From the NCBI RefSeq assembly GCF_900088535.1, contig NZ_LT578417.1, positions 1,860,001-1,924,000 of the forward strand: a DNA stretch of 64,000 bases, given 5' to 3'. Numbering within the stretch: the stretch's first letter is position 1; each line of letters starts with the position of its first letter. The notes under the pieces are model-generated. The model had not been told where the DNA came from, did no database searches, and was given only the letters and a program-made list of their open reading frames with translations. Below are positions 9,665 to 37,535 of the stretch, piece after piece. Both the position numbers and the translations under genes were made by a program. The DNA comes from Cyanobium sp. NIES-981 (GTDB lineage: Bacteria; Cyanobacteriota; Cyanobacteriia; PCC-6307; Cyanobiaceae).

Positions 9665-10498
9665 TCAGCGGCTGTTGGGGGAGGCGTCCCGGAGTTCCGG
9701 ACGGTTCCCCCCGGGCCGGGGTCCATCGCCGTCTCCACGGCCCCCATCGCCGAACCCGAAGCCGAACCCGAAGGAGAACGGCAGCCGCCCGCCGCCTGCC
9801 CGGGGCGCCGGGCGGGGCAGGCGCACGCCCGGCACGTTGGCGTTGAGGTGGTCCTCCAGGGCGCCCTGGTCGGGGAGCCGCGGCTCGAAGCCGCGGAACA
9901 GCGGACCCTCCAGGATCGCCTGGTAGTCCTGCGGGGTGAGGGCGATCACGGTGGTGAGGTCCAGGGCCTGCAGCAACCGCAGCCGCTGGCCGCTCTCCAG
10001 CAGCAGCGGGGCCTGGCCGGTGGGTTCCCCATCGCGCAGCCGCACCAGCTCCAGGCGCCCCTCCAGGGAGGTGACCGCCGTGTCGCCGTTCTCGAAGGCC
10101 TCCAGGATGTAGTTGGTGCCGCGCACACTCACCCGCATGGAGCGGGTGCAGCCGTTCTGGCGTCCCGACACCAGCAGCTGGCCCTGATCCAGCAGCAGAC
10201 AGCCGCGGCCCAGCCTCAGGCGCGACTGGCGGTTGATGCGGGCGCCGGCGCCGGTGTGGAAGCGAAGCTGGGCCCGGGTGTCGCGGGTGCTGAGGGTCTC
10301 GGGCTCGTGGGCCACATCCTTCACCCGGGCCCGGCGCTGCTCGATGTACAGCTCGGGCCGGTCGAGGATCTGCAGCACGGTGGCCTGCACCGCGCCCCCG
10401 CTGCTGCCCTGGGCGAGGGTGCTGGCCGGCACCGCCCGGGCCGGCGCCAGCGCCAGGGGCAGCAGCAGGAGCAGGGCGCGGATCCCCCGGTTGAGCAC
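9665..10498 (-). CDS. Secreted FecR-domain protein (paralogue 1)
   Basis: A 277-residue protein with an N-terminal hydrophobic signal (IRALLLLLPLALAPARA) and a FecR-type beta-helical domain over residues ~40-170. Two Cys flank the core (GCLL...GCTRS) and could form a disulfide in the periplasm. The block VRGTNYILE is characteristic. The C-terminus is Gly/Phe/Asp/Pro-rich. It is clearly paralogous to the FecR protein at 13623-14423 (shared GQ(L/I)LVSG, GCTRS, SVRGTNYILE, YVPGV-like end). It lies alone, separated from the cyclase cluster by thiO on the other strand. Classical FecR proteins are anti-sigma regulators, but this one lacks the cytoplasmic helix and is probably a ligand or matrix-type sensor. 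Confidence 0.8.
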   Translation of the reverse strand: MLNRGIRALLLLLPLALAPARAVPASTLAQGSSGGAVQATVLQILDRPELYIEQRRARVKDVAHEPETLSTRDTRAQLRFHTGAGARINRQSRLRLGRGCLLLDQGQLLVSGRQNGCTRSMRVSVRGTNYILEAFENGDTAVTSLEGRLELVRLRDGEPTGQAPLLLESGQRLRLLQALDLTTVIALTPQDYQAILEGPLFRGFEPRLPDQGALEDHLNANVPGVRLPRPAPRAGGGRLPFSFGFGFGFGDGGRGDGDGPRPGGNRPELRDASPNSR

Positions 10499-10608
10499 GG
10501 TCCCCAGCCCCCCTGCCTGGCCTCCCCACTCTGCAGCGATCCCGCTGCTTTGGCCCGCCGCCGGCGCAGGGGGATTGGCAGGATGCCTGCGGCCTGCCGT
10601 CCCCCGCC

Positions 10609-11748
10609 GTGAGCGCCAGCGCGAATCCAGCGAGCGCCGACACCCTGATCCTGGGGGGAGGGCTGATGGGACTCTCCATTGCCCACCACCTCGCCCGCCG
10701 GGGGATGGGGGTGCGGGTGCTCAGCCGCCGCCGGCAGGAGGCCGCCGGCTTCGTGGCGGCCGGCATGCTGGCCCCCCACGCCGAAGGGCTCCGCGGGCCC
10801 CTGCTCAGCCTCGGCCAGCACTCCCTGGCGCGGATCCCCGCCTGGGTGGCCGCGATCGAGGCCGATTCCGGGCTCGGCTGCGGGCTGCGGCGCTGCGGCA
10901 TCGTGGTGCCCTTCGCCACGGCCGAGGCCAGCGACGCCTACCCCACCGCCCGCTGGGGGCAGCCGCTCGACCGCCAGGGCCTCGAGCGGGAGGTGCCGGG
11001 CATCGGCAAGTCCTGGCAGGCCGGCCTGCTCTTCCCCCAGGACGGCCAGATCGACAACCGCCGGCGCCTGATGCGGGCCCTGGAGCGGGCCTGCGTGGAG
11101 CGGGGGGTGCAGTTCGAGGAGGGGGCCGAGGTGCTGGAGCTGGGCGCCGACGACCACGGCACCCTGGCGGCGGTGCGCTGGCGCGGGGCCGACGGCCGCA
11201 CCCAGGAGCTGCCCTGCGATCGGGCCGTGCTGTGCGGCGGCGCCTGGAGCAGCCAGCTGCTGCCCCAGCTGCCGATCACCCCCGTGAAGGGGCAGATGCT
11301 GTCGCTGCAGGGACCCCGCCACGCTCTGGGGCGGGTGATCTTCGGGCCCGGAACGTACCTGGTGCCCCGCAAGGACGGCCTGGTGGTGGTGGGGGCCACC
11401 TCCGAACCGGAGGCCGGCTTCAGGCCCGGCCTCACGCCCGCTGGCCAGCGCCAGCTGGAGGAGGGCCTCACCGCCCTGCTGCCGGCGGCCGGCGGCTGGC
11501 CGTCGATGGAGCGCTGGTGGGGCTTCCGCCCCTGCACACCGGACGAGGGCCCGCTGCTGGGACCGGGCCCCATGGCCGGCCTCTGGCTGGCGGCGGGCCA
11601 CCACCGCAACGGGGTGCTGCTGGCCGCCATCACCGCTGAGCTGGTGGGGGATTCCCTGCTCGGGCAGCGCCTGCCAGCGGAGGATCAACACCTGCTGGAG
11701 GCGTTCCGCTGGGACCGTTTCAACCTGCCGGCAGGGCCCGGAGCGTGA
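10609..11748 (+). CDS. thiO: Glycine oxidase ThiO (FAD-dependent)
   Basis: ThiO oxidises glycine to iminoglycine for the thiazole moiety of thiamine. The 379-residue protein opens with an FAD-binding dinucleotide fold (LILGGGLMGLSIAHHLARRG, truncated description: GxGxxG-like at residues ~14-20), and has the family blocks AAGMLAPHAEG, PVKGQMLSL and WWGFRPCTPDEGPLLG, ending with the FAD-contacting HHRNGVLLA. The start is GTG. The 3' end overlaps the convergent cyclase gene by 29 bases. The gene interrupts the array of FecR/cyclase genes on the opposite strand. Confidence 0.92.
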   Translation: MSASANPASADTLILGGGLMGLSIAHHLARRGMGVRVLSRRRQEAAGFVAAGMLAPHAEGLRGPLLSLGQHSLARIPAWVAAIEADSGLGCGLRRCGIVVPFATAEASDAYPTARWGQPLDRQGLEREVPGIGKSWQAGLLFPQDGQIDNRRRLMRALERACVERGVQFEEGAEVLELGADDHGTLAAVRWRGADGRTQELPCDRAVLCGGAWSSQLLPQLPITPVKGQMLSLQGPRHALGRVIFGPGTYLVPRKDGLVVVGATSEPEAGFRPGLTPAGQRQLEEGLTALLPAAGGWPSMERWWGFRPCTPDEGPLLGPGPMAGLWLAAGHHRNGVLLAAITAELVGDSLLGQRLPAEDQHLLEAFRWDRFNLPAGPGA

Positions 11749-13612
11749 ACACCGGCAGCTCCCCCATGCCCTTCACCGGCAGCTCCCCCAGCGGCTGCAC
11801 CGGCAGCTCCCCGTCCACGAGCTCGGCGGTGGCGGCGTCGAAGAGGAGGGGCGTCCCTGCTGTGCGGGTGAGCCCCTCCATCCGGCTGGCCAGGTTGACC
11901 TTGTCGCCGATCACGGTGAACTCCATGCGGCGGGGGCTGCCGATCTGGCCCACGATCACCTCCCCGGAAGCCAGGCCCGTGCAGTTGTCGAGCGGCTCCA
12001 GGCCCTCGGCCTGCCAGGCGCTGTTCAGCCGGCTCAGGGCCCGCCGCATCTCGGCGGCACAGCGCACCGCGGCCACCGCCTCCGCCCGGGGCCCCCGGCC
12101 CAGCGGGGAGCCGAACACCGCCATCACCGCATCGCCGATGAACTTGTCCACGGTGCCGCCATGGGCGGTGATCACCTCCACCATCTCGCCGAGGTAGCGG
12201 TTGAGCTGGCGCACATGCAGCTCGATCTCACCACTGCCGCTGCGGCTGTTGGTGAGCTGGGTGAAGCCCTTGAGGTCGGTGAAGAGCACGGTGACGGGCA
12301 GGAGCCGGCCGCGCAGGATGCCCTCCGCCGCCGCCGGATCGGAGAGGATCTCCGCCACCACACTGGGGGCCACGTAGCGCTCGAAGGTGCGGCGCAGGCG
12401 CCGCCGCTCACGCTCCTCCGCCAGGTAGGCATCGCCGCCGTAGAGCGCCCCCAGCAGCACCAGCGCCGTGGCGGGCACCAGCAGGGGCACCCAGGTGTTG
12501 AGGCGGTCGAAGGCCAGCCAGGCGCCGGCCAGCTGCAGGGCCAGCACCAGCGCCACCAGCCCGAGCCGCCAGCCCAGGCCCGCGCGCAGCAGGGCCAGGA
12601 CGGCCACCAGCAGCACCGGCGTCAGGGCCAGCAGACCGCGGGGCAGCGGCTGGACCGGCCAGGTCTGCAGGCCATCACCCAGCAGCGAATTGGCGGTGGC
12701 GGTCGCCAGCATCTCCAGCCCGGAGAGGGTGCCGAAGGGCGTCACCGTGCCTGCCCCCCCCTGGGCGCCCACCGGCCCGATCAGCACCACCGCATCCCGG
12801 ATCAGGCTGCGCCTGGGGTGGTTGCGCCAGCGCTCCGGATCGAGCACTTCCCAGGCGGGCAGCCGCTCGAAGGAGGCCTCCGGGCCGTAGAAGTTCAGCT
12901 GGCGCCGGGCATCGGCCTGCCGGCTCACCCGGCCGGAACGCTCCAGAGCCACCTGGGAGAGGGCTGGCTGGGGCTTGGCGCCAGCCAGCGCCAGGATCCG
13001 CTCGCTGTAGGTCTGGGGGTGGCTGTGGGCCTCACCCTGGCCGCCCGGCAGGGTGTTGGTGATGCCAAGACCGCCGGGGCCGGCCGCCTCGCGCAGCAGA
13101 TCGGCGGGCGGGGCCAGGCTCAGGCCCGTGAAGCTGGTGTCGCGGATCTCCATGACCTCCGCGGCGAGGGCCACGCGGCCCCGCTGGCGACCGATGGCCG
13201 CCGCCAGTGCGGCATCGTCGGCCGGGCCCTGGCTGCTGGGGCCCTCGAAGACCACGTTGATGGCCACCGCCCCAGGACTGGCCTCCCCCAGCCGGTCGAG
13301 CAGATCGCCGTAGCGGGCCCGGGGCCAGGGGAGGGTGCTGAGCCCCTCGGCCCAGGCGGGAATCGGTTCCGCGTCCTGGGACTGGTCGGCGAACCAGGCC
13401 CCTTGCTGGAGGGTGGAATCGTCGATCGCCACCAGCACCACCGACTGGGGCACCGGCCGCCGGCCGCGCAGCCGCACCAGCTGATCCTCCAGGCCCCGTT
13501 CGAGAACGCGCAGCTGCTGCGGCGGCCGGGCCCCCAGCCCGCCCACTGTCAGGGCCAGACCACCGGAGGCCAGAGCCAGGGCCACGGTGCGGCGCAGGGA
13601 GGAAGCCATCAC
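11720..13612 (-). CDS. CHASE2-domain class III adenylate cyclase (cyclase 1)
   Basis: A 630-residue inner-membrane cyclase. After a signal-anchor (~8-26) comes an extracytoplasmic CHASE2 sensor (~30-315; blocks VVLVAIDDSTL and AVVLIGPVGA), three transmembrane helices (~325-392), then the cyclase domain (~425-590). Catalytic residues are all present: metal-binding Asp446 and Asp494, Lys490, Thr566 at the base-specifying position, transition-state Asn573 and Arg577. The Thr favours ATP, so cAMP is the expected product. The C-terminus carries three GELPV repeats. It is last of the minus-strand set FecR-cyclase-FecR-cyclase. The signal it senses is unknown. Confidence 0.92.
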   Translation of the reverse strand: MMASSLRRTVALALASGGLALTVGGLGARPPQQLRVLERGLEDQLVRLRGRRPVPQSVVLVAIDDSTLQQGAWFADQSQDAEPIPAWAEGLSTLPWPRARYGDLLDRLGEASPGAVAINVVFEGPSSQGPADDAALAAAIGRQRGRVALAAEVMEIRDTSFTGLSLAPPADLLREAAGPGGLGITNTLPGGQGEAHSHPQTYSERILALAGAKPQPALSQVALERSGRVSRQADARRQLNFYGPEASFERLPAWEVLDPERWRNHPRRSLIRDAVVLIGPVGAQGGAGTVTPFGTLSGLEMLATATANSLLGDGLQTWPVQPLPRGLLALTPVLLVAVLALLRAGLGWRLGLVALVLALQLAGAWLAFDRLNTWVPLLVPATALVLLGALYGGDAYLAEERERRRLRRTFERYVAPSVVAEILSDPAAAEGILRGRLLPVTVLFTDLKGFTQLTNSRSGSGEIELHVRQLNRYLGEMVEVITAHGGTVDKFIGDAVMAVFGSPLGRGPRAEAVAAVRCAAEMRRALSRLNSAWQAEGLEPLDNCTGLASGEVIVGQIGSPRRMEFTVIGDKVNLASRMEGLTRTAGTPLLFDAATAELVDGELPVQPLGELPVKGMGELPVFTLRALPAG

Positions 13613-13622
13613 AGAAGCCGAC

Positions 13623-14423
13623 TCAGAAGAACCGCGGGAAACTCAGGCCAGGGATCGGGAGCGAGGGGGTGACCGGCAGGCTCGGCAGGTTCACCCCGGG
13701 CACGTAGCGGCGCACGTAGCTCTCCAGCGAACCGAAAGCCGGCAGGGGGGTGCTGAAGCCCTCGAACAGTGACCCGCCGAAGATGGCGTTGTAATCGCCC
13801 GCATTGAGGCGCAGCAGGGTCAGCACCACACCGGCGGGCGACAGGGTGACGCGCTGGCCGGCCTCCACGCGCGTGCTCGGGGCAGGGGCACCGTCCTGCG
13901 GGGGTTCACCGTCCTGCACGGCTTCACCATCCCGCAGCGGTTCCACCTCCACCGCGCCCTCCAGCACGGAGAGTTCGGCCTGCCCGTCCTCCCTGACCTC
14001 GAGGATGTAGTTGGTGCCGCGCACGCTCATCCGCGCCGAGCGGGTGCAGCCGCTCTGGGGACCGGAGACGAGGATCTGGCCTTGACGGAGCAGGAAACAG
14101 CCGCTGCCCAGTCGGAGCTGGGAGAAGCGGTTCACCCGGCCGGCCGCCCCGGTGTCGAAGCGGATCTGCCCCCGGCTCTTGCGGGTGCTGATCTCCTGCG
14201 GCGCCGCGGCCCGCTGCTTCACCCTGGCCTCCCGGCCGTCGACGTAGAACTCCCGGCCATCGAGGATCTCCTGCACCGTGGCGGCCTCTCTCGCCGCAGC
14301 GGGGGTGGGCGGCAGCACGGCAAGCGGCACCAGCACCAGGGGCCACCAGACCCGCCGCAGGGGCTGCCGCAGGGGGGGCTGCCGCGGGGGGTGGGAGCGC
14401 ATCGGATCACGGAGAGCCTGCAT
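13623..14423 (-). CDS. Secreted FecR-domain protein (paralogue 2)
   Basis: The protein has an N-terminal basic region and hydrophobic signal (VWWPLVLVPLAVLPPTPAAA), a FecR-type domain and two conserved Cys (GCFLL...GCTRS). It is paralogous to the FecR protein at 9665-10498. I used the ATG at 14423, 10 bases after the cyclase-2 stop; ATG at 14402 is an alternative and gives a cleaner signal peptide. A duplicated DGE(A/P)xQDG block sits around residue 165. Ten bases separate its end from cyclase 1, so it is very likely co-transcribed with both cyclases and may deliver the signal read by CHASE2. Confidence 0.8.
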   Translation of the reverse strand: MQALRDPMRSHPPRQPPLRQPLRRVWWPLVLVPLAVLPPTPAAAREAATVQEILDGREFYVDGREARVKQRAAAPQEISTRKSRGQIRFDTGAAGRVNRFSQLRLGSGCFLLRQGQILVSGPQSGCTRSARMSVRGTNYILEVREDGQAELSVLEGAVEVEPLRDGEAVQDGEPPQDGAPAPSTRVEAGQRVTLSPAGVVLTLLRLNAGDYNAIFGGSLFEGFSTPLPAFGSLESYVRRYVPGVNLPSLPVTPSLPIPGLSFPRFF

Positions 14424-14433
14424 CGCCGCATTC

Positions 14434-16317
14434 TCACCCCGGTTCCACGGGAGGCACCGCCAACGCATGCACCTCCAGCGGGGTGGGCCACCCCTTCAGC
14501 TGGTGCCGACCAAGGGGGAGGGTGCGCACCTCCGCCGGCAGCAGGTCCCGCAGGGCGGCACTGAGCAGGATGGGGTGATCGGGGAAGCGGCGGGTGAGGC
14601 CCTGCAGCCGGCTGGCCACATTCACAGCCGCTCCCACCACCGTGAACTCCAGCCGCTGGGGGGAGCCGAGGTTGCCGGCGATCACCTCCCCCACGTGCAG
14701 CCCGATGCCCTGCTGCAGCAGCGGCAGCCCCTGGCTGGCGAGCTCCCGGTTGAGAGCCCCCAGCCGCTCCTGCATGGCCAGCGCCGCCCGCACGGCCGCC
14801 ATCGCCTCTGCGCGCTCCCCGCGGCTGCGGGGCACGCCGAACTCCGCCATCAGGGCATCACCGATGAACTTGTCCAGCAGACCGTTCTGCTCGATCACGG
14901 CGGCGGCGATCGCCGCGAAGTAGCGGTTGAGCAACGCGAACAGTTCGCCTGGGGCCAGGCGGGCGCTGAGCGCGGTGAAGCCCACCAGGTCGGTGAACAG
15001 CACCACGCAGGTGCAGCGGCGCCCTCCCAGCTCGGTGCCGAGCGGCCCGGGATCCCGCAGGATGTCGCGGAGCAGGGCTGGTGAGATCCGCCGGGCCAGC
15101 ACCTGATGCAGGTAGGCCCGCTCCCGGCGTTCGTGCCAGGCCTGGCCGCTGGCCCGCAGGCCCCCCGCCAGCAGCGGCATCGCCAGCAGCGCCGAGAGAG
15201 GGAGCCAGAGCTGCAGCAGCCCCCAGGCCAGCCCGGCCAGGAGCAGGCCGCCCGCCCCTAGCGCCAGCCCCCGGGCGACGCTGCCCAGGGCCAGGGGGGA
15301 GCCCCGCAACACGCCCCACACGCCCAGCCCCCACCCCAGCAGCACCAGCGCCGCCAGCGGATCCTCCAGGGGCGCCAGGGCGCTGCCCCGCGCCACGCTG
15401 GCCAGGGCCTCGGCCTGCACCTGCGTGCCACTGAGCGGGCCGAAGGGGGTTTCCATCTGGTCGCCGAGGGAGGGGGCCGTGACGCCGATCAGCACGGTGC
15501 GCCCCCGCCAGTAGGAGGCGGGAAGATCCGGCAGCCGCCAGGCGGGCACCAGGGGCACGCGGGCCGAGGGAGCGCGGAAGTCGATGTAGCGCGGCAGACG
15601 GGGCGGCGGCGGGGAGCTGGGCAGGAGCCGGTCCGCCAGGGGGAGGGGCGAGGGCGGCGCGAAACCGGCCAGGTGGCCCTGCAGCCAGGCCGCCCCGGGG
15701 ATCGCTTCGGTGAAGCCCTGGGGGCTCTGGAGCAGGGCGGTGAGGCCGGGGGGCGGGGCGGCCGCGGTGCTGAGCAGCGGCAGGGGGCGCCGCAGCTGCA
15801 GCAGCTCCAGTCCCTCCTGCTGCCGCTGGGCGAAGGCCGCCGCCAGCACCACGCGCTGCCGCCAGGGCCGCAGCCGCTCCGCGAAGGCGCGGTCGTCGGC
15901 GGCACCGAAGCGGCTGGGTTGGCTCAGCACCACGTTGAACAGCACCCGCTCGGCCCCCCGCTCCAGCACCCAGGCCGCCAGCTCGGCCTGCAGGGCCCGG
16001 CGCCAGGGCCAGGCCCCCATGGCACTGAGCAGGGGCGAAGCCTGGCGTTGCTCCCGCGTCAGCAGCTGATCCAGCTCCAGGGACTCGGCATCGATGCCGA
16101 GCAGCACCAGATCGGCCGCGCCGCCCGGGACCGCCCGGTCGGCGCCCAGGCCGGCGCGGATCCGAAACCCGGCCCCCCGCAGCTGGGCGTCGGCGGCCGC
16201 CAACGCCCGCCCGGGGAACCCCTGCCGCAGCGGGCCGGGCAGGGCGACCAGCACAGGCAGGAGCAGCCCCAGGATCCAGGGCTGGCGCCAGCGCGGCGGA
16301 CGGATCTCAGCCACCAC
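14434..16317 (-). CDS. CHASE2-domain class III adenylate cyclase (cyclase 2)
   Basis: A 627-residue membrane cyclase with a signal-anchor (~13-30), CHASE2 region (~35-315; VLLGIDAESLEL, TVLIGVTAPSLGD), three transmembrane helices (~320-390) and a C-terminal cyclase domain. Metal ligands Asp443 and Asp487, Lys483, Thr559, Asn566 and Arg570 are present. The otherwise near-invariant Asp of the (I/V)GDxVN block is Ala563 (VGAAVN). That residue is structural in relatives, so activity may be reduced. The start overlaps FecR protein 3 by 11 bases, indicating translational coupling. Confidence 0.9.
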   Translation of the reverse strand: MVAEIRPPRWRQPWILGLLLPVLVALPGPLRQGFPGRALAAADAQLRGAGFRIRAGLGADRAVPGGAADLVLLGIDAESLELDQLLTREQRQASPLLSAMGAWPWRRALQAELAAWVLERGAERVLFNVVLSQPSRFGAADDRAFAERLRPWRQRVVLAAAFAQRQQEGLELLQLRRPLPLLSTAAAPPPGLTALLQSPQGFTEAIPGAAWLQGHLAGFAPPSPLPLADRLLPSSPPPPRLPRYIDFRAPSARVPLVPAWRLPDLPASYWRGRTVLIGVTAPSLGDQMETPFGPLSGTQVQAEALASVARGSALAPLEDPLAALVLLGWGLGVWGVLRGSPLALGSVARGLALGAGGLLLAGLAWGLLQLWLPLSALLAMPLLAGGLRASGQAWHERRERAYLHQVLARRISPALLRDILRDPGPLGTELGGRRCTCVVLFTDLVGFTALSARLAPGELFALLNRYFAAIAAAVIEQNGLLDKFIGDALMAEFGVPRSRGERAEAMAAVRAALAMQERLGALNRELASQGLPLLQQGIGLHVGEVIAGNLGSPQRLEFTVVGAAVNVASRLQGLTRRFPDHPILLSAALRDLLPAEVRTLPLGRHQLKGWPTPLEVHALAVPPVEPG

Positions 16318-17035
16318 CCGGTTGCGGCGCCGCCCCCAGGCTCTCCAGCTCCCTGTCGATCACCGGCAGCGTGGGCATCGGGGCCGAAAAACCGTTCAGC
16401 AGGGGGCTGGAGCGGCGGCGCTGCAGCGCCTCGGCACGCCCCAGGCGGCGCGGGCTCAGCCAGGCGCCGTTCTGGTAGGTGAGCTGCTCGCCGCTGCGCA
16501 GCACGACCTCCTGACCTCCCCCCGCCTGCGCGCTCCCTGCCGGGGAGGAATCCGTGCTGACCCGCACCCGGCCCTCCCAGCTGAACACCAGCACGCGCTC
16601 GGCATCCACCTCCAGGAACACGGTGGTGCCCTCGATCGAAGCGGTGCCCACCCGGGTGCGCACCCGCAGCGGCTCACCGCCCTGGCGGCCGGGATTGATC
16701 CAGGCGATCAGCTGGCCGCGTTCCAGATCGAGCGCCGAGGGTGTGAGCCGGACCACCGCATCCCCGCCGAGCCGGAAGCTGCGGCCATTCGGCAGGTCCA
16801 CCTGCATCCGTCCGGGGCGCTGGGTGCGCAGCAGGGAGCTCCCCGGCAGCCGCTGGCCCACCCTGGCGGACCGTTCCTGATCGCCGGGCGGCCGCACGAA
16901 GGCCGGCCGGGAGGGCACATCCGCCACCGTCGGCAACGGGCGGGAGGCCTGCACCCTCGCGGCCGGGCCGATCAGGAGCGCGGTGACCGCGGCCAGCAGA
17001 GTGCCGCGCACAGGCAGCGGACGGAGGGCCGGCAT
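16307..17035 (-). CDS. Secreted FecR-domain protein 3
   Basis: A 242-residue protein with a signal peptide (GTLLAAVTALLIGPAARVQA) and a FecR domain (~65-200) containing LRTQRPGRMQVDLPNG, RVRTRVGTASIEGTTVFLEV and a GEQLTYQNG end. It lacks the paired Cys of the other two FecR proteins here and is more divergent. Its end overlaps the cyclase-2 start by 11 bases. It follows ndk by 30 bases on the same strand, so ndk may share the transcript. A role as periplasmic partner of the downstream CHASE2 cyclase is inferred from coupling only. Confidence 0.82.
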   Translation of the reverse strand: MPALRPLPVRGTLLAAVTALLIGPAARVQASRPLPTVADVPSRPAFVRPPGDQERSARVGQRLPGSSLLRTQRPGRMQVDLPNGRSFRLGGDAVVRLTPSALDLERGQLIAWINPGRQGGEPLRVRTRVGTASIEGTTVFLEVDAERVLVFSWEGRVRVSTDSSPAGSAQAGGGQEVVLRSGEQLTYQNGAWLSPRRLGRAEALQRRRSSPLLNGFSAPMPTLPVIDRELESLGAAPQPGGG

Positions 17036-17065: not shown

Positions 17066-17524
17066 TCAGCCCTCGCTGCGCCAGCTCTGATCGGAGGGGG
17101 TCCAGTCGCTCAGCTCGGAGGGCTGGAACCAGAGGCCGATCTCGAAGTCGGCGGTTTCGGGGGCATCGGAGCCGTGGATCACGTTGCGGCCGATGTTGAT
17201 GGCCAGATCCCCGCGGATCGTGCCGGGCTCGGCCTCGAGGGGCTTGGTGGCGCCGATGAGCTTGCGGGCACTGGCGATCACGCCATCGCCCTCCCACACC
17301 ATCGCCACCACGGGACCCGACGTGATGAACTCGACCAGGCCGGCGAAGAAGGGGCGCTCGCGGTGCACGCCGTAGTGCTGTTCAGCCAGCTCACGGCTGG
17401 GGGTGAGCTGCTTGAGGCCCACCAGCTTGAAGCCCTTGCGCTCGAAACGCCCCAGGATCTCACCCACCAGGCCCCGCTGGACGCCATCGGGCTTGATGGC
17501 GATGAAGGTGCGTTCGGCGGCCAT
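17066..17524 (-). CDS. ndk: Nucleoside diphosphate kinase
   Basis: NDK equilibrates nucleoside di- and triphosphates using a phospho-His intermediate. The 152-residue protein starts [21 protein letters not shown] and has the active-site His117 in NVIHGSD, followed by a normal C-terminus ([10 protein letters not shown]). An upstream in-frame start would add nine residues with no family match, so I chose the ATG at 17524. It is divergent from speA and lies directly upstream of the FecR/cyclase genes on its own strand. Confidence 0.97.
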
Positions 17525-17601
17525 GAACTCGATGCGGCGGATCCGGGCCATCGTGTGCGCCGGGCCTGCCGCTTGGCAAGCTCACCCCTGGGCCACCTGA
17601 C

Positions 17602-20090: not shown

Positions 20091-21584
20091 ATGCTGCCGA
20101 TGGCGATGTCCCAACTCGCTCTCAGCCTCGCGCTGGCAGCCGGACTGGTGGTGGGGCGGGCCTGGATGGTGCGCCACAGCCGCCTGGCTCCCCTGCCCCT
20201 GCTGCTTCCCCTCACCGCCCTGCTGGTGCATGTGGTGGCCACGCTCACGCCGGCGGCGCAGCTCGGGGCGGTGCCGGCCCGCTGGCTTGCCAGCCTGGAC
20301 CTGCTGTTCACGGGCTTCGCCCTGATCCGCCTGGGCACCTGGGGATGCCTGCAGCTGCCCGCCGGCCTGGGCTGGTGGCCCCAACCCCCGAAGATCCTGC
20401 GCGATCTGGCCATGCTGCTGCTGGCGGCGGCGTTCACGGTGCTGGTGCTTAGGGAGCGGGCCGGGGTGAATCTGGTGGGGCTGCTCACCACCTCCGCGGT
20501 GCTCACCGCCGTGGTGGGTCTGGCGGCCCAGGAAACCCTCAAGGACCTCTTCGCGGGCATCAGCCTGCAACTCGATGCCCCCTTCAGCGAGGGCGACTGG
20601 ATCGAGGTGAACGGCAGCGGCGGCATCGTCCAGACCGTGACTCTGATGAACACCTACCTGAAGACCGCCGACGGCAGCAGGCTGGTGGTGCCCAACGACA
20701 CCGTGGCCCAGGCGACGGCGCGCTGCTTCACGCCCCATGACCCGGTGGGGAACCGCTTCAGCATCGGCCTGGACTACGCCCTGCCCCCGGGGCAGGCCTG
20801 TGCGCTGCTGGAGCAGGTGATGGCCCAGTGCCCCGGTGTGCTCCAGCAGCCACCGCCCCGGGCGTGGGTGGGGGCCTATGCCGACAGTGCCATCACCTAC
20901 GAGCTGCTGGTGTGGCAGCGGGGCGCGGGCGAGCTGCAGCGCCTGGAGGTGCGCAGCACGGTGCTGCAGCACATCTGGTATGCCCTCAGCCGTGAAGGCC
21001 AGAGCATTCCCTACCCGGTGCGGGAGCTGCGCCCGAAGCGCCAGGGCCCCCCGGAGGATGATCCCGCCCTGATCGACGTGGAGGCCCGCGCCCGGCTGCT
21101 CTCCGGCAACGCCCTGTTCCAGGAGCTCGGGGCGGACCAGCTGGCCCAGCTGGCCCCCCTCACCCGCTGCCTGCGCTTCGGGCCCGGCGAAGCCGTGGTG
21201 CGGGAAGGGGATCCCAGCTCGGCGCTGTTTCAGATCGTGCGCGGCCGGGTCGCGGTGCTGAAGGCCGGGCCCCAGGGCGGGCAGACGGCCCTGGCCAGCC
21301 TGGGGGCTGGGGAGGTGTTCGGGGAGATGGGCCTGTGCACCGGTGGCCGCCGCACAGCCACCGTGCGTGCCGAGGAAGACACGGTGCTGCTCGAGGTGGA
21401 GCGGGACGACCTGATGCCGCTGGTGGAGGCGGAGCCGGAATTCCTGAACCATCTGGCCCGCCTGGTGAACCGCCGGCGCTGCGAGCTGGAGAAGGTGACG
21501 GCCGAGCAGGCCGCGGCCCACGAGCTGGGCCTCCTCCAGCGCATGCAGCAGCTGTTCGGGGCGGTGGGAATGGGGCGGACCTGA
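20091..21584 (+). CDS. MscS-type channel with C-terminal cyclic-nucleotide-binding domain
   Basis: The 497-residue inner-membrane protein has four to five N-terminal helices, the pore-lining MscS helix (LLTTSAVLTAVVGLAAQETLKD), the MscS beta domain (DWIEVNGSGGIV, VVPNDTVAQATARCF), and at ~350-470 a cNMP-binding domain. The phosphate-binding cassette reads FGEMGL...RRTATV, with the Glu and Arg that hold the nucleotide. Such proteins belong to the bCNG family, in which cyclic-nucleotide binding gates or modulates the channel. A nearby ATG at 20100 is an alternative start. With three cyclases close by it is a candidate cAMP effector. Confidence 0.92.
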   Translation: MLPMAMSQLALSLALAAGLVVGRAWMVRHSRLAPLPLLLPLTALLVHVVATLTPAAQLGAVPARWLASLDLLFTGFALIRLGTWGCLQLPAGLGWWPQPPKILRDLAMLLLAAAFTVLVLRERAGVNLVGLLTTSAVLTAVVGLAAQETLKDLFAGISLQLDAPFSEGDWIEVNGSGGIVQTVTLMNTYLKTADGSRLVVPNDTVAQATARCFTPHDPVGNRFSIGLDYALPPGQACALLEQVMAQCPGVLQQPPPRAWVGAYADSAITYELLVWQRGAGELQRLEVRSTVLQHIWYALSREGQSIPYPVRELRPKRQGPPEDDPALIDVEARARLLSGNALFQELGADQLAQLAPLTRCLRFGPGEAVVREGDPSSALFQIVRGRVAVLKAGPQGGQTALASLGAGEVFGEMGLCTGGRRTATVRAEEDTVLLEVERDDLMPLVEAEPEFLNHLARLVNRRRCELEKVTAEQAAAHELGLLQRMQQLFGAVGMGRT

Positions 21585-24982: not shown

Positions 24983-24988
24983 GGCGTT

Positions 24989-27900: not shown

Positions 27901-28756
27901 TTCCGGATCCGGACAACAGAAAGATATCCCCATTGGCCAGAACACTGACATCCCCTCCATTGGTGTCTAGCCGACCCTGAAGCAGAAAGAAACTGTCGGT
28001 TTTTGCCAGGAAATCCGCCCCTCTGGTGAACACATCACCGGAAACCGAAATACTGCCAGACTGCGAGTCCAGCAGTACAGTTTCAGGCAACAAGCCTGGA
28101 TCTACGGAAAGCAGGTTGCCAAAGATTGAGATGTCGCCATTGAAGCCCCCGGGATTTGTCAAGAAGCCCTGGGGGGCACCAGTGAGCTGAGCGACCTGGC
28201 CAGCCGTTGTCTGGCCATCAAAAGCCAGGCCGCCCGGGAACCTCAGAGTGGTGGCCGTACTCAGCTGGAGGTTGAGCACATTGCTGAACGAACCGTTGCC
28301 GCTGACGGAGATGCCTCCCGGAGATAGCCAGAAGAGGCTCGCCGCATTCTGGAGTTCCACAGGAATGTTGATAAAGGTGCCATTGGCTCCTGTTACCGAC
28401 ACAAAAACGGAACCGAATGCGCCGTTCAGAAACCTTACGCCAGCAAGCGATGTGCTTGCTCGCGTATCAAAATCAGAAAATCGATGGAACAGATGATTGG
28501 CACCGGCAGCCGTGCCCCCCGTGACCGTGCAGACGCCGCTCGTGCAGCTGCCGGTGCCGTTGTTGACGAGCGTTCCCAGGGATGAAGGGGATGAATCGGG
28601 CGTAATCTGAGCCAGGGTGGGTGGTGCGGCCCATATCCCGGCCACCAGGACAGGCCCGAGAATCTTCAACCGAGGGGCCAGGCTGACAGGCCAACGGTGA
28701 GGCCTTGCCTTGATCCATGACCAGCATTCAGTGAGACGCAGAGCACACGTCAGCAT
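24989..28756 (-). CDS. Two-partner-secretion exoprotein with C-terminal CHAT protease domain
   Basis: A 1255-residue multidomain protein. An unusually long signal region (~1-50, ending [14 protein letters not shown]) is followed by a filamentous-haemagglutinin-type TPS domain (~55-280; [31 protein letters not shown]), a beta-helical stem to ~660, a Pro/Thr/Asn/Gly linker (~665-755), and after ~800 a CHAT domain. CHAT is a caspase-like Cys protease fold; the dyad is visible as His1093 (HLATHAEF) and Cys1138 ([10 protein letters not shown]). The divergent TpsB transporter should export it across the outer membrane. Target proteins and activation are unknown. The 5' half is less GC-rich than neighbouring genes. 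Confidence 0.9.
26575..26770. repeat. Hexanucleotide-rich low-complexity tract coding the Pro-Thr/Pro-Asn linker
   Basis: Units such as GGGTCG, GGGTTC and GGGTTG repeat nearly without interruption, encoding PTPTPNPNP-type sequence on the minus strand. The plus strand carries many closely spaced runs of three or more G, so it may form G-quadruplex structures and vary in length by slippage. Confidence 0.9.
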
Positions 28757-28989
28757 CTGAAACTCCCTGGCGCAACCCGAGGGCTGCTATCACGCTGAAC
28801 AAACTATAGGTTGATTCTGGCTGAAGTTCATGGGCCAGTCCATGGAGACAGACAGGTATCCACAACCGGTAACACCACAGCGACCAGCCACATCTCAGAT
28901 CAGCGGTATCACGCTTGCGGGGGCTGCCACTGTGAGCTCTTCATCCAAGGCCAGTTCACGAAGCAGGCCAGCTCTGGCTTGCATGTCTG

Positions 28990-30735
28990 TTGAACCATCC
29001 CATCATCTTCGCGGGATTGCTTCCAGTCTCGGGTATGTCAATGCTGCTGCTCGCACAGCTGGTGGCACCTCCGCTGCAACAGGGTCCTGTGCGGCTGCCG
29101 GAGAACCGGCCATCCCTGGAACGGCGGGCTCCTGCCCGTGGGGCTGAGCAGCCCCCCCTGGAGGTGATGCCGGACGACAACGCAAAACCACCTCTGGACG
29201 GGGAACCGGCGCCGGAAGCCCCGGTCCCGGCCGTGCCCAGCGGTGGTCTGCCAGCCATCGAGGGACTCACCCTCTACGACAACGACAGACTGCGCGACAT
29301 CCTTGCGGACTGCAGCCAGATCAGTGCTCCAGCCGAGCGGCTGAATGCCTGCGCCGCCGCACTCACCGCCCAGTTCGTGGCCGATGGCTACGTGAACAGC
29401 CGTGTGTTCGTGGAGCTCACCCCCGCCCCGGGTCGCCTTCTGGTGGTGGAGGGCCGCCTGGTGGAACTGCGGGTGAACGGCAACGACGACCGGCTGAACC
29501 GCCGCGTCGCCCGCCTGATGCGATCCCTGCAGGGCACGCTGCTCCACCTGCCGAGCCTCGAGCGCCAGCTGCAGTTGCTGCGCCGGGTTCCTGGAGTGAA
29601 ACAGGTGCGGGGCAACCTCTCCCGACTCGGCAGCGACCCCACCCAGGCCACCCTCACCATCACGCTCGAAGGCGGCGCGCCCGCCTGGCAAGGCGACCTT
29701 TCCCTCCGCAACGACGGCAACAACGGTTCCGGTGATGCTCGCGCCGTCGCCAGCTTCCTCAAGCCCGGCGCGTTGGTGGCTGGCGACGTGCTGCTGCTCT
29801 ACGGGGAGCTCAACAGTGACGACGAGCCAGAGCTGGGGGCAGCGATCACCTCACTCACCTACACCCTGCCCCTCGGTGACGCCTTCAATCTCACCACGGC
29901 CTTCGGTGCGAGCCGCCGGGACCTGATCGAGCTGGACCCACCCGCCGATGGTCTCTCGACCACGCAGCTCCAGGGTCTCGGCCAGCTCGAGTGGGTGTTC
30001 TCCGAGAGCCTCACCCAGCGTTGGAACGCCTTCCTGGGGATCAGCGGCAGCTCCAGCCGCACCCGCCTCGATGGCGCGTCGTTGCCCTCCACAGTGCCGG
30101 AGATCATCCGCAAGCCGCGCAGCGGCTATCTGCGGCTGGGCGTCGGTGGCAGTGGCCAGGGCGTGGGGGTGGGCTGGGGTGGCTCGGCCTACCTGCTGGC
30201 CGGGCTCTCAGGCATGAGCCCCGCCGAACAGCGCCGTGAGTGGCGGGAGGCCGGCATCGACCCCTCCCAGGCCACGGCCATCGGCGGCCTGATCTCGGCT
30301 GGGTGGGCCTTCGCACCTGGCTGGCAGCTCAACGGCCGTCTGGCGGGCCAGTGGGCCTTCAACCCCCTTCTGCCCTCCATGCAGTTCAGCCTGGGGTCGG
30401 ATGTGGGCCTGCGCGGTCTGCCCGCCCAGCTGATCAGCGGCGACAGCGGCTGGCTGGCCGTCACCGAGGCGTCCTGGACCTTCTGGCAGAACCGCAGCCA
30501 CGCCCTGCAGCTGGTGCCCTTCATCGGTGCCGGCGGCGTGCGCAGCGAGCTGAGCGACTTCAACTTCAGCGACACCCTCGGCTCCGGCGGGCTGCTGCTG
30601 CGTTGGCTGGCCGGCGACAACTGGGCCTTCGAGCTGGGTTGGGCCCACCAGTTCTCCACAGGGACCCTCGAGGGTCCCTGGAATGACTGGGTGCTCGACG
30701 ATGGCCTCTACGCCAAGGCGCAGTTCCGGTTCTGA
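28990..30735 (+). CDS. TpsB/ShlB/FhaC-type outer-membrane secretion protein
   Basis: This is the transporter partner of the CHAT exoprotein, transcribed divergently from it. Residues ~90-240 hold POTRA-type periplasmic domains (YVNSRVFVEL, RLLVVEGRLVEL), followed by a 16-strand-type beta-barrel ending in a C-terminal Phe (AKAQFRF), as expected for BamA-dependent insertion. The conserved VRGY-like lid motif reads LRGLP (~residue 475). A Pro-rich stretch (~25-90) precedes the POTRAs. The first start is TTG at 28990; ATG at 29035 gives a shorter signal peptide and may be the real one. The ~230-280 base gap to the exoprotein presumably holds both promoters. Confidence 0.9.
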   Translation: MNHPIIFAGLLPVSGMSMLLLAQLVAPPLQQGPVRLPENRPSLERRAPARGAEQPPLEVMPDDNAKPPLDGEPAPEAPVPAVPSGGLPAIEGLTLYDNDRLRDILADCSQISAPAERLNACAAALTAQFVADGYVNSRVFVELTPAPGRLLVVEGRLVELRVNGNDDRLNRRVARLMRSLQGTLLHLPSLERQLQLLRRVPGVKQVRGNLSRLGSDPTQATLTITLEGGAPAWQGDLSLRNDGNNGSGDARAVASFLKPGALVAGDVLLLYGELNSDDEPELGAAITSLTYTLPLGDAFNLTTAFGASRRDLIELDPPADGLSTTQLQGLGQLEWVFSESLTQRWNAFLGISGSSSRTRLDGASLPSTVPEIIRKPRSGYLRLGVGGSGQGVGVGWGGSAYLLAGLSGMSPAEQRREWREAGIDPSQATAIGGLISAGWAFAPGWQLNGRLAGQWAFNPLLPSMQFSLGSDVGLRGLPAQLISGDSGWLAVTEASWTFWQNRSHALQLVPFIGAGGVRSELSDFNFSDTLGSGGLLLRWLAGDNWAFELGWAHQFSTGTLEGPWNDWVLDDGLYAKAQFRF

Positions 30736-30768
30736 TTGGCCTGCCGGCTCAGCCCCCCTGAATCAGAA
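30730..30768. repeat. Inverted repeat at convergent gene ends
   Basis: TTCTGATT (30730-30737) faces AATCAGAA (30761-30768) across 23 bases. Both arms include the final Phe codon and stop of the flanking genes, so it may be partly coincidental, but it could act as a weak bidirectional terminator. Confidence 0.3.
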
Positions 30769-34780: not shown

Positions 34781-34832
34781 GGCTCAGGTCAACTACCCGG
34801 GAAAGGGAATGATCGCTCAGCGACCTTCGGGC

Positions 34833-37535
34833 TCACGGAGCTCCGGAGGGGCCAGGCGCCGCGTCCGACTGCTGGCCCTGCAATCCCTCGATCCGCCGGG
34901 TCTGCTGGCGCAGCAGGCTGCGGGCGAAGCCCGAGGACTGGTGCAGCAGCTGCTCGAAGGCCGCGGCATCGAACACCAGCGCCCGCACCGGCTCCAGGGC
35001 CATGGCGGCCGAACCCCTGGAGCGGCCGCTCAGCAGGGCCATCTCCCCGAGGGTTTCGCCGGCTGACACCCGCGCCTGCCAGTCGACGCCGCTGACCAGG
35101 GCCGAGCCCTCCAGCAGGATCGCCATCCAGGCCGCTTCCGCGCCGACCTGCAGGATCGGTGCTCCAGCCGGCCAGGAACGCAGCTCCCCCCAGGCCGCCA
35201 CATTGAACAGCGCCGAGGGCGACAGCTCCGCCAGCAGGGGCACCTGCAGCAGCAGCTCCAGGAGGGGGGCCTCGGCCAGGGGCCGCCCATCCAGGAGGCC
35301 CTGGAGATGGGGCGTGACCGGCAGGCCGGTGCGGGGGGTGCGGCGCAGTCGTGCCGCCCGGGCCGGATCCCGCTGATCGAGCAGCCACAGCACCCACACC
35401 GCGTTCTCCGGATCGGGGTCGTGCCACAGGTCCTCGATCGCCTGCAGGGGATCCGGCAGGGGCTCAAGCTCCTGGGCTGGCTGCGGATCCGGATGGGGCA
35501 GCAGGGTGAGGTCGCGGCGCAGCACCTCACCCACCACCCCGGGGGGGAGCAGGGACTGCAGGGCAGTGAAGCGCTGCAGCAGCGGATCACCGCTGCGGAA
35601 CTCGGCCAGCAGGGGCAGCAGGGGCAGCAGGCAGCCCACGATGCGCAGGTCGCTCACCGGCAGCAGGGGCCGGAGCAGGCCGTCGTGCGTCGCGGCGGCA
35701 GCCAGCGCGGCGCGGCGGGACAGTTCCCCCTGCAGGGCCTCCATCCCGTTCTCCAGCTGGCGACGGGCGAAGGCCGAGCGGGGACCGAAGCGCAGCAGCA
35801 GCTCCTGCCAGGCCCCGTCGTCGAGACCGGAGTCCTGGCGGATCATCTCCAGCCGCCGGGCCTGGGAGGTGTCGAGCAGGTCGGGCCTCAGGTCATGCTG
35901 CCCGGCCAGCTGCAGCAGGTCGTGGATCGCCTCCGCTGCTGCGTCCTCCCGCAGGCTGCGGCTGGCCCTCTGACGGCCATCGAGCTCGAGCAGATCCGCG
36001 TCCTGGAGCTCCAGTTCGCGGATGGCCGCGTGGTGGTCGGCCTCCTCGAGCCCCAGGGCGAGGCGCAGCTCCTCGAGCTGCACCGCGCTGGTGGCCCGCT
36101 CCAGCCGGCCGCTGCGGAACAGATCGGCCAGCACGTCGCGGTAGAGGGCCTGGCTGTTGGCGGCGAGCTGGGCCGGCAGCGCCTTGGCCAGGGTGAACAC
36201 CTCGCCGGGCGTGAGCTCCTCGAGCGTGCGCCCATCGAGATGGGCCTCCAGGCCGGGGAAGCGCTTCCTGAGCTGGGAGCGGAGGCTGGCGCTGGTGCTC
36301 TCGCGGCGGTAGACCTCCGCATCGCGGGGCCAGCCGCGGTAGAGCCAGATGGCGCTGGCGATCAGCACCAGCGAGCGGATCAGCTGCCCCACCTTGCCCT
36401 CCACCGCCCCGAGGCTGGGATCGGCGAACCAGAAGAACAGGTTCACCGCCAGGAAGGTGGCCAGAAGCCGGGTGCGGGAGCGGGCCATGGCCTGGGCACG
36501 CTCCTTGCTGTGGTCCCGCGCCAGCCTGCCCAGCAGCGCCGTCTCCAGGCCACCGAAGAGCGCCACACTGCCGGCACCGGCGGCGCTCAGCAGGGCGGGA
36601 ACCGCCAGCAGGCGCGGCACACCCCAGCTGGCATCGGCCCGGGGCCAGAGCTCCAGGGCCCGGCCGGGCAGGCCGGCATCGAAGGCCCACAGGCCGCTGC
36701 GCAGCATCTCGATGGCCTCGGGCCCCTGGTGACGGGTGAGCAGGAAGAAGGCCAGCACCAGCCCCGGGTAGGACAGCCAGGCCCAGCGCAGGCCGCGCCT
36801 GCCCTCGAATCCGGCCCAGTAGGTGCGTTCGGAATCGATGTCGATGCAGGGCGACTGGCAGGCCACGCAGGCTGAGCGCACCTGGCCGTCATCGCCGAGC
36901 GTGCGGCACATCGACTGGGTGATGCGGCTGGCATCGAGGTGGGCGGCGCTGGCCAGGGGTCCGCGCGGACCGGTGACCACCTGCTGGACCGCTCCCATCG
37001 GGCAGACGTACTGACACCAGGCCTTGCCGGCATAGGCCCAGCCGACCACGACCGCCGCCACCACCGTGAGCAGCAGCAGCAGGCCCAGCCCCAGCGGACT
37101 GCTGTTCACCGCCAGCAGCCGCAGGCTCAGACCCGCGATCAGCAGACTCCACTGCAGGGCCAGGTGGTGCCGGCCCAGCCAGGAGTCGCTCTCCACCTTG
37201 GCCAGCTGGAGCCTGCCGTTCCTGCCCGGTACCCGGCGCTGCCGGTCCAGGGCCCGGAACAGCTGGGAGACGAACGCCAGCGGACAGATGCGGCGCCAGA
37301 GCTCATGGCTGCCGGCCGCCAGGATCAGCAGACCGCTGGGCACCACCACGCCCCAGAACAGCTGGTTGCCGCCGTGGCCGTGGCAGTCCAGGCCGTCGGT
37401 GCAGAGCGGCGGCCGCAGGGCCCAGCCCCCCAGCGGCGGAATCAGCAGCGAGGCGATCAGGGCGAGCCAGCCCAGCAGCAGCAGCCAGCGCACGGCGTGG
37501 GCCTGACGTTCGGGCCACCTTGCGAAGATCCGCAT
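34833..37535 (-). CDS. Membrane polyferredoxin-like protein with cyclic-nucleotide-binding domain
   Basis: A 900-residue protein. The N-terminal ~350 residues are membrane helices with ferredoxin-type Cys: C174-x3-C178-P (CQYVCPMG) and C210, C223-x2-C226-x3-C230 (CVACQSPC), as in NapH/CcoG-type membrane iron-sulfur proteins, plus RRICPLAFVSQ at ~81. A helical middle region (~450-750) follows, and residues ~770-880 form a cNMP-binding fold with a phosphate-binding-cassette-like GETLGEMALLSGRSRGSAA. I used the ATG at 37535 because the preceding 62 residues are not protein-like. The architecture suggests nucleotide-controlled electron transfer in the membrane; redox partners are unknown. Confidence 0.85.
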   Translation of the reverse strand: MRIFARWPERQAHAVRWLLLLGWLALIASLLIPPLGGWALRPPLCTDGLDCHGHGGNQLFWGVVVPSGLLILAAGSHELWRRICPLAFVSQLFRALDRQRRVPGRNGRLQLAKVESDSWLGRHHLALQWSLLIAGLSLRLLAVNSSPLGLGLLLLLTVVAAVVVGWAYAGKAWCQYVCPMGAVQQVVTGPRGPLASAAHLDASRITQSMCRTLGDDGQVRSACVACQSPCIDIDSERTYWAGFEGRRGLRWAWLSYPGLVLAFFLLTRHQGPEAIEMLRSGLWAFDAGLPGRALELWPRADASWGVPRLLAVPALLSAAGAGSVALFGGLETALLGRLARDHSKERAQAMARSRTRLLATFLAVNLFFWFADPSLGAVEGKVGQLIRSLVLIASAIWLYRGWPRDAEVYRRESTSASLRSQLRKRFPGLEAHLDGRTLEELTPGEVFTLAKALPAQLAANSQALYRDVLADLFRSGRLERATSAVQLEELRLALGLEEADHHAAIRELELQDADLLELDGRQRASRSLREDAAAEAIHDLLQLAGQHDLRPDLLDTSQARRLEMIRQDSGLDDGAWQELLLRFGPRSAFARRQLENGMEALQGELSRRAALAAAATHDGLLRPLLPVSDLRIVGCLLPLLPLLAEFRSGDPLLQRFTALQSLLPPGVVGEVLRRDLTLLPHPDPQPAQELEPLPDPLQAIEDLWHDPDPENAVWVLWLLDQRDPARAARLRRTPRTGLPVTPHLQGLLDGRPLAEAPLLELLLQVPLLAELSPSALFNVAAWGELRSWPAGAPILQVGAEAAWMAILLEGSALVSGVDWQARVSAGETLGEMALLSGRSRGSAAMALEPVRALVFDAAAFEQLLHQSSGFARSLLRQQTRRIEGLQGQQSDAAPGPSGAP

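Follow-up and report, generated by a model that had tools for sequence, protein, structure and literature searches.

The window, a stretch of 64,000 nucleotides from Cyanobium sp. NIES-981 (contig NZ_LT578417.1), contains a dense group of signalling and envelope genes between its positions 9,665 and 37,535 (Table 1). All features of this interval that were named in an earlier note, which was made from the letters alone, are present. The note's list omitted ndk, TpsA-CHAT, TpsB and the DUF928-like gene. The housekeeping genes gatB, thiO, speA and alaS also lie within the interval. One gene run has the order ndk-fecR3-cyc2-fecR2-cyc1, with ndk first. The whole genome codes for only three CHASE2 and three Guanylate_cyc domains, all of them within this interval. 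An outer-membrane receptor able to feed FecR was not recognised within the interval.

Table 1. Features of the interval (positions in the window).
Feature	Position	Strand	Description
fecR1	9665..10498	-	secreted FecR-like protein; here not immediately adjoining any cyclase gene
cyc1	11720..13612	-	CHASE2, membrane part, predicted class III adenylyl cyclase
fecR2	13623..14468	-	secreted FecR protein; precedes its partner cyc1 by 10 bp
cyc2	14434..16317	-	CHASE2, membrane part, predicted class III adenylyl cyclase
fecR3	16307..17035	-	secreted FecR/CSS protein, partner of cyc2; 11 bp overlap with cyc2
ndk	17066..17551	-	nucleoside diphosphate kinase; housekeeping, conserved neighbour
bCNG	20091..21584	+	MscS-type channel carrying a cNMP domain at its C-terminus; candidate effector of cAMP
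cyc3	22350..24398	+	CHASE2, membrane part, predicted class III adenylyl cyclase; clade with DUF928-like partner
DUF928-like	24356..24982	-	secreted; tail-to-tail with cyc3; follows the CHAT gene at a distance of 6 bp
TpsA-CHAT	24989..28756	-	signal peptide, then a putative, divergent TPS secretion domain, a Pro-rich linker and a peptidase-like CHAT domain that has a His/Cys dyad
TpsB	28990..30735	+	outer-membrane transporter of the ShlB/FhaC type, with POTRA; gene diverges from that of TpsA-CHAT
insertion-like block	22257..30762		cyc3, DUF928-like, TpsA-CHAT and TpsB
membrane Fe-S protein with cNMP domain	34833..37535	-	Fer4_5 and cNMP

Cyclases and their secreted partners

CHASE2 and Guanylate_cyc score above the Pfam cut-offs in each of the three proteins, which confirms them as CHASE2 class III cyclases; it is not certain that cyc3 starts with the TTG at 22350. 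The metal Asp pair and the transition-state Asn and Arg are intact in all 99 cyclases that were aligned, cyc1-3 included. The purine-selecting site is occupied by Lys in 96 of these 99, among them cyc1, cyc2 and cyc3; the second purine-selecting position is Thr in cyc1 and cyc2 and Gly in cyc3. The best PDB match of cyc3 is Synechocystis Cya2 (PDB 2W01), also a CHASE2 class III cyclase. Cya2 has Glu where cyc1-3 have Lys and is a guanylyl cyclase, which the replacement E488K at the purine-selecting site converts into an adenylyl cyclase (PMC5995499). Because of their Lys, cyc1-3 are predicted to be adenylyl cyclases with cAMP as the product. A guanylyl cyclase reading was rejected on account of this residue, and cGMP, which the earlier note had named beside cAMP, is not the predicted product.

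The deepest split in the cyclase tree is fully supported and separates a FecR-partnered clade (58/60) from a clade partnered by DUF928-like proteins (25/27). The proposal that FecR proteins go with the cyclases is supported for two of the three cyclases, which have FecR as a dedicated neighbour. Among 37 FecR matches in 151 genomes of the family, 36 have CHASE2 on the same strand at a distance of no more than 2 kb. The gaps between the FecR and cyclase genes are mostly -3 to +99 nt, and the FecR subfamily agrees with the cyclase subfamily in 58/58 cases. The third cyclase belongs to the clade devoid of FecR and is instead accompanied, tail-to-tail, by the DUF928-like gene beside the TPS/CHAT genes. 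At a Pfam cut-off of 24 bits for FecR, fecR3 (32.3 bits) and fecR2 (24.2 bits) pass, while fecR1 (17.4 bits) stays below it and reaches 222 bits with a profile grown from its own family. A homologue of fecR1 is found directly downstream of cyc1 in another genome (G003), and the gene order at one locus (L071) is fecR2-cyc1-fecR1.

The AF2 model of fecR3 (pLDDT 88) matches the CSS domain of PupR (6ovk, E=2.5e-7), so that by this model fecR3 has the fold with which PupR takes up signals from the outer membrane. The N-terminal anti-sigma domain and the inner-membrane helix are absent from fecR3. As it consists only of a signal peptide and the CSS domain, it is considered a CSS protein that stands alone and does not belong to the anti-sigma regulators of the FecR type. 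The distance correlations between FecR and CHASE2 are 0.81-0.90. They were rejected as proof of contact by co-evolution, because for cyc1 the correlation of FecR with the cyclase domain is at least as strong; they can reflect common descent.

The partner of cyc3 (208 aa; AF2 model with pLDDT 87) failed the Pfam test for DUF928 (PF06051), which only the distant member L180 matches. The motif FPGRRxGGGTRGxC is shared, and the protein is therefore named DUF928-like; a fold search with this protein returned only non-significant fibronectin-III-like matches. The CHAT domain of the adjacent TpsA-CHAT is a clear Pfam match (4.6e-51), with His and Cys present. Its N-terminus has no Pfam TPS match, and a match to TIGR01901 (E=0.036) is under the cut-off. 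An iterated family profile links TpsA-CHAT to proteins with Pfam TPS matches of E=1e-41 to 3e-49, with which it has the motifs NLFHxF and ANLFxLxPxGI in common. TpsB is above the cut-off for ShlB (43.8 bits) and slightly under that for POTRA_2 (22.6 vs 24). In other cyanobacterial families, CHAT was found within 10 kb of CHASE2 in 8 cases vs 2.4 expected (p=0.005, from few genomes); the proximity outside Cyanobiaceae is probably real but modest.

Parts of the system are gained or lost as units. In the near relative G009, where the flanks are 86% identical, 131 bp stand at the place of the insertion-like block of about 8.5 kb, and G005 lacks the stretch with fecR3 and cyc2. The cassette of cyc3, DUF928-like, CHAT and TpsB genes is located away from the gatB...alaS locus in G090, G101 and G096, and extra copies occur in G082, G140 and G017.

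The channel, its neighbours and other cNMP proteins

The gene annotated bCNG codes for MscS channel domains and, behind them, a cNMP domain (residues about 340-465) in which Glu and Arg are kept in the phosphate-binding cassette. This is the architecture of bCNG channels (Ss-bCNGa, Malcolm et al. 2012, as recounted in PMC13312541). The present channel differs from those described there by its genomic linkage to dedicated cyclases and is a candidate for gating by cyclic nucleotides. Full-length orthologues occur mostly in genomes with CHASE2 (41/44), and 33 are within 10 kb of CHASE2. When a divergent channel group is added, 48/62 have a class III cyclase no more than 10 kb away, and 10 of those channels are paired, on the same strand, with a cyclase of another kind that lacks CHASE2. 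In two genomes devoid of CHASE2, a response-regulator cyclase is encoded at the channel's locus. Presence and absence of channel and cyclase are strongly associated (Fisher, p=2.5e-21, phylogeny being ignored). There are also groups of channel copies far from any cyclase, and a channel but no cyclase was found in G139 and G168, both of which are under 90% complete. The earlier view that a cyclic nucleotide acts on the channel fits this recurrent adjacency, with cAMP as the predicted nucleotide, not cGMP. As judged from sequence and gene order, cAMP probably gates the neighbouring MscS-type channel.

The Fe-S/cNMP protein had been proposed as a second, redox effector. Its orthologue alignments start near the start codon chosen in the earlier note. 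Only 10/24 orthologues are encoded within 20 kb of CHASE2, the phosphate-binding motif is variable, and in G114 (L137) the gene is present at the same locus, where there is no cyclase. It was thus rejected as a core effector; the protein is a loose neighbour and probably lies outside the core of the module.

Chance proximity was assessed by rotating gene positions 3000 times in 16 single-contig genomes, a test that ignores shared ancestry. FecR was within 1.5 kb of CHASE2 in 11/11 cases (0.04 expected) and the channel within 5 kb in 10/11 (0.08 expected); the counts for ShlB within 10 kb and CHAT within 5 kb were 6/8 (0.09 expected) and 6/16 (0.11 expected). None of the 3000 rotations reached the observed counts. 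Independent scattering of these genes in relatives, which the earlier note had named as one outcome that would tell against it, is not seen for FecR, the channel or the cassette. The genomes are not independent, because many clusters share one ancestral locus (gatB...alaS). Dozens of relatives have these groupings too, which therefore resemble a real signalling module more than a set of chance neighbours. In Synechococcus sp. WH 5701, for example, FecR-cyclase pairs and the channel are present together at one locus (L233).

A putative relay across the envelope

We propose, with a probability of about 0.5, a modular trans-envelope cAMP relay. The proposal builds on the parts themselves, their conserved pairing, the intact catalytic and cNMP-binding residues, and the gain or loss of parts as units. 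Each cyclase would act as a CHASE2 sensor in the inner membrane and have a secreted partner of its own, encoded by an adjacent gene. This partner would be FecR in the case of cyc1 and cyc2, and in that of cyc3 the DUF928-like protein, accompanied by a two-partner-secretion CHAT system. The partner would bring the state of the outer membrane or cell surface to the CHASE2 domain, presumably by direct contact. For cyc3, the signal is probably whether the surface protein TpsA-CHAT is secreted or intact. Upon CHASE2 input, the class III domain would produce cAMP, which may bind to the cNMP domain of the channel and bias its gating, so that the flux of ions or osmolytes is adjusted.

The neighbourhood might instead be passive. 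The gatB-ndk-speA-alaS-snf2 region would then be a genomic-island hotspot that collects unrelated envelope and signalling genes, which are co-inherited, and only the FecR-cyclase pairs would cooperate. This backbone is indeed common to nearly all clusters, the Fe-S/cNMP gene can reside there without a cyclase, and the module Syn_GI122 of marine Synechococcus/Cyanobium, with cyclases, secreted CHAT proteins and a cAMP-regulated MscS, was published as a genomic island (Dore et al. 2020, in the passage on this island, PMC7522525). We consider this unlikely: channel-cyclase pairs are also found at other loci and with other cyclase types, the cassette retains its contents when located elsewhere, the region is occupied by different channel lineages, and the rotation tests argue against it.

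Two separate systems are likewise an unlikely explanation. The FecR-cyclases and the channel would serve a cAMP-dependent osmotic or envelope response, while TPS-CHAT would be an independent surface or contact protease, controlled by cyc3 via another cNMP protein. Consistent with this, cyc3 is in a separate clade and has a separate partner, G009 has FecR-cyclases and channel with the cassette absent, and the cassette occurs without a nearby channel in L082 and L084. However, in G000, G064 and G152 the cyc3 gene lies next to that of the channel on the same strand, and in G145, G123, G017 and G163 the start of the CHASE2 match is 123 bp away from the channel match.

A more elaborate version of the proposed relay is rather improbable as a whole. 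In it, the state of the surface-exposed, secreted caspase-like CHAT protein would be the signal, DUF928-like and FecR/CSS proteins would be interchangeable periplasmic adaptors, each switching its own CHASE2 cyclase, cAMP would open the MscS channel, and the line from surface to channel would be gained and lost as a cassette. It is very unlikely that other cNMP proteins encoded in the genome (patatin-cNMP, glutaminase-cNMP), and not the neighbouring channel, are the main targets of cAMP: there are ten cNMP matches, the patatin-cNMP protein bears a canonical PRSA-type motif, and CRP near cyclases of other strains is mentioned in a passage by Dore et al. (PMC7522525), but the channel is the genome's best cNMP match and has the canonical motif, and a PRSA-type motif is absent from the one CRP/HTH protein in the set that was scanned.

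Several characterized or published systems resemble the proposed relay. Like the present locus, Syn_GI122 combines secreted CHAT proteins with adenylate cyclases near cNMP proteins, including the MscS channel, a likeness in kinds of component; the passage describing it does not mention CHASE2-FecR pairing, a DUF928-like partner, two-partner secretion or two cyclase clades (PMC7522525). In a Campylobacterota cluster, a CHASE2 cyclase is also encoded with FecR, and a single pathway was proposed; that cluster adds a phosphodiesterase and a TPR protein (PMC9239204), whereas here FecR directly precedes each FecR-partnered cyclase and a channel is added. The Burkholderia BiofilmReg operon likewise has a FecR-domain envelope protein directly before a CHASE2 sensor, but with a histidine kinase as output and LysM on its FecR protein (PMC5192318). 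In S. meliloti, the CHASE2 cyclases CyaD1, CyaD2 and CyaK raise cAMP upon protein perception by the outer-membrane barrel NsrA and thus, as proposed here, report perception of an outside protein via cAMP; the effector differs, being the regulator Clr, and NsrA is not known as a TpsB (PMC13001267). FecR-CHASE2 clusters and cyclase/CHAT/MscS islands are thus already in print, and the locus is a variant of these.

To our knowledge, the signal sensed by CHASE2 domains is largely unknown, and the stimulus that gates bCNG channels in the cell is poorly known. The Burkholderia study also calls the CHASE2 input largely unknown (PMC5192318). That a different secreted partner goes with each CHASE2 clade offers specific, testable partner assignments for CHASE2, and a channel that keeps company with three kinds of cyclase offers specific, testable effector assignments for bCNG.

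Gene content and conservation of the interval

Pfam scans of the interval recovered every gene listed in the earlier note: the three CHASE2 class III cyclases (cyc1, cyc2 and cyc3), the FecR-like proteins, the MscS-cNMP channel and the Fe-S/cNMP protein. That inventory was incomplete, as the CHAT protein with its putative two-partner-secretion (TPS) domain, TpsB and the DUF928-like protein had been overlooked. The genome is a single contig of 3.02 Mb. Its whole set of CHASE2 (three) and Guanylate_cyc (three) domains sits inside the interval, which also holds two of its ten cNMP matches. A 418-aa secreted protein without assigned family was otherwise seen in no genomes but those of the two closest relatives, G009 and G005. 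There is an 11-bp overlap between fecR3 and the start of cyc2, fecR2 lies 10 bp upstream of cyc1, and ndk lies 30 bp upstream of fecR3 on the same strand. Because of this spacing and the common strand, ndk-fecR3-cyc2-fecR2-cyc1 is predicted to be one transcription unit.

Gene order and locations of features (L-numbers denote individual regions, with coordinates within each)
Feature	Location	Strand	Remark
Left part of interval			gatB, fecR1, thiO, cyc1, fecR2, cyc2, fecR3, ndk, speA, MscS-cNMP channel
Right part of interval			cyc3, 208-aa secreted, CHAT, ShlB-type transporter, 418-aa secreted, alaS, Fe-S/cNMP, 140-aa, SNF2 helicase
cyc3 cassette block	window 22257-30762		cyc3, DUF928-like, CHAT, TpsB
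418-aa secreted protein	window 30763-32019	-	
Response-regulator class III cyclase	L129:7011-8132	-	between alaS and channel, genome without CHASE2
Response-regulator class III cyclase	L131:710-1831	-	between alaS and channel, genome without CHASE2
Glutaminase-cNMP	L063:1-1866	+	own genome, outside window
Patatin-cNMP	L064:838-3147	+	own genome, outside window
CHAT-CHASE2 fusion type	L138:12908-15061	+	
CHAT-CHASE2 fusion type	L139:13832-16015	+	
CHAT-CHASE2 fusion type	L140:10930-13062	+	
CHAT-CHASE2 fusion type	L142:3065-5233	-	
cyc2 in two frames	L116:6827-7308	-	G178
cyc2 with TAG	L135:10808-12697	+	G110

In 151 genomes of the family, FecR matches lie at most 2 kb from a CHASE2 match on the same strand in 36 of 37 cases, and all 24 ShlB matches on CHASE2-bearing contigs are within 20 kb of CHASE2. 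Chance expectation was obtained by rotation of gene positions in 16 single-contig genomes. Proximity to CHASE2 was observed for 11/11 FecR (0.04 expected), 10/11 channels (0.08), 6/8 ShlB (0.09) and 6/16 CHAT matches (0.11). Independent scattering of the genes in relatives, which the earlier note had named as a refuting result, was not seen for FecR, the channel and the cassette. Gene maps of about 60 regions place most clusters at one chromosomal locus (gatB-thiO-ndk-speA-alaS-snf2), so that vertical inheritance accounts for part of this co-occurrence. Three observations exceed it: units move or are lost whole, cyclase clades have their own partners, and the channel keeps varied company.

The cassette block is replaced by 131 bp in G009, where its flanks are 86% identical. 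The G+C content of chat is 63%, versus 72-76% in the channel gene, cyc1 and cyc2. The cassette lies off the gatB...snf2 backbone in G090, G101 and G096, and extra copies occur in G082, G140 and G017. The fecR3-cyc2 stretch is missing in G005. The broken cyc2 genes of G178 and G110 indicate decay of individual cyclases at a locus that otherwise stays in place.

Cyclase clades and periplasmic partners

The deepest, fully supported split of the cyclase tree separates a FecR-adjacent clade from a DUF928-like clade. The proposed role of FecR as CHASE2 partner is supported by gene neighborhood for the former (cyc1/cyc2-type; FecR beside the gene in 58/60), but not for the cyc3 clade, where a DUF928-like gene is present instead (25/27). 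FecR3-type proteins occur only with cyc2-type and FecR2-type only with cyc1-type cyclases (58/58). FecR is downstream instead of upstream in 11 cyc1-type cases, ten of which form a separate sub-clade. The predicted FecR3 structure (pLDDT 88) matches the cell-surface-signalling (CSS) domain of PupR (6ovk, E=2.5e-7) and is devoid of the anti-sigma part.

Each of the 99 cyclases keeps the metal-binding Asp pair along with the Asn and Arg of the transition state; the adenine-selecting Lys is kept in 96. The best PDB match for cyc3 is Synechocystis Cya2 (2W01), a CHASE2-regulated guanylyl cyclase that is turned into an adenylyl cyclase by the change E488K (PMC5995499). Unlike Cya2, cyc3 carries Lys at this site.

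The CHAT protein (1255 aa) has an N-terminal signal peptide (by eye), followed by a region with the TPS domain motifs NLFHxF and ANLFxLxPxGI. The Pfam TPS model gave no match and the NCBIfam model stayed under its cut-off (E=0.036); a profile grown from the protein's family links it to Pfam TPS proteins (1e-41 to 3e-49). A ShlB/FhaC-type TpsB gene adjoins it in divergent orientation. The CHAT His and Cys are retained here and in 43/43 proteins scored (one of them frameshifted). Products of stand-alone CHAT genes elsewhere also seem to have a signal peptide (by eye). The 208-aa protein shares the motif FPGRRxGGGTRGxC with DUF928; it does not match Pfam DUF928 and is hence termed only DUF928-like. 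A fold search with its predicted structure (pLDDT 87) gave fibronectin-III-like matches only, none significant. CHAT-CHASE2 fusion-type proteins (about 710-727 aa, lacking a cyclase domain) are an independent link of CHAT with CHASE2. Probable fusions of a similar kind appear in other cyanobacterial families, where a CHAT match lies less than 400 bp from a CHASE2 match.

Candidate cAMP receptors

Of 44 full-length channel orthologs, 41 occur in CHASE2 genomes, 33 of them within 10 kb of CHASE2. Three genomes have the channel without CHASE2; in two of these (G138, G173), a class III cyclase of the response-regulator type is encoded near the channel, between alaS and speA. Another, more distantly related set of channels shows 10 same-strand pairs with another non-CHASE2 cyclase, 216-450 bp from the cyclase domain. 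Cyclase proximity switches at least seven times in the channel tree, and the window's channel clusters with copies both near and far from cyclases. The channels nested within the cyanobacterial clade include those of L247 (order speA-cyc1-FecR-alaS) and L265, from records titled Bifidobacterium breve and Rhodopirellula, which are probably mis-binned contigs.

All 39 channels scored keep the Glu and the Arg in the phosphate-binding cassette of the cNMP domain. Across those cNMP proteins of the genome that were examined, the usual R-S/T-A motif is present in the channel and in the patatin-cNMP protein, and absent from the only one with a CRP helix-turn-helix. On these sequence motifs, the channel is the best candidate cAMP receptor. 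The patatin phospholipase and a glutaminase with C-terminal cNMP domain are possible further effectors.

The Fe-S/cNMP protein, which the earlier note had cast as a second effector, is probably not a core part of the module. Only 10 of 24 ortholog matches lie within 20 kb of CHASE2, G114 has the gene at the same locus with the cyclase absent, and the binding motif varies among relatives. It may still respond to cAMP.

Proposed signal path and novelty

Around these parts, with their pairing, intact residues and behavior as units, we propose that a periplasmic partner (FecR/CSS or DUF928-like) would contact CHASE2 and pass on a signal, that the cyclase would then produce cAMP, and that cAMP would gate the MscS-cNMP channel. 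A genetic precedent comes from Sinorhizobium meliloti, where perception of a protein by the outer-membrane barrel NsrA leads CHASE2 cyclases to increase cAMP (PMC13001267). Beside cyc3, the barrel is TpsB. By analogy, secretion or state of TpsA-CHAT would be a natural candidate for the cyc3 signal.

FecR-CHASE2 clusters are known from Campylobacterota, with cyclases as output (PMC9239204), and from Burkholderia, with a histidine kinase (PMC5192318). Dore et al. (PMC7522525) had already named a genomic-island module in marine Synechococcus/Cyanobium that comprises secreted CHAT proteins as well as adenylate cyclases close to cNMP proteins, one of these being an MscS channel regulated by cAMP. 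Among the openly available papers searched, none was found to combine "CHAT domain" and "two-partner secretion". As far as that literature shows, the new elements are the split of the cyclases into two clades that differ in their periplasmic partner, a CHASE2-DUF928-like-CHAT-TpsB unit, and a channel that accompanies three cyclase architectures.
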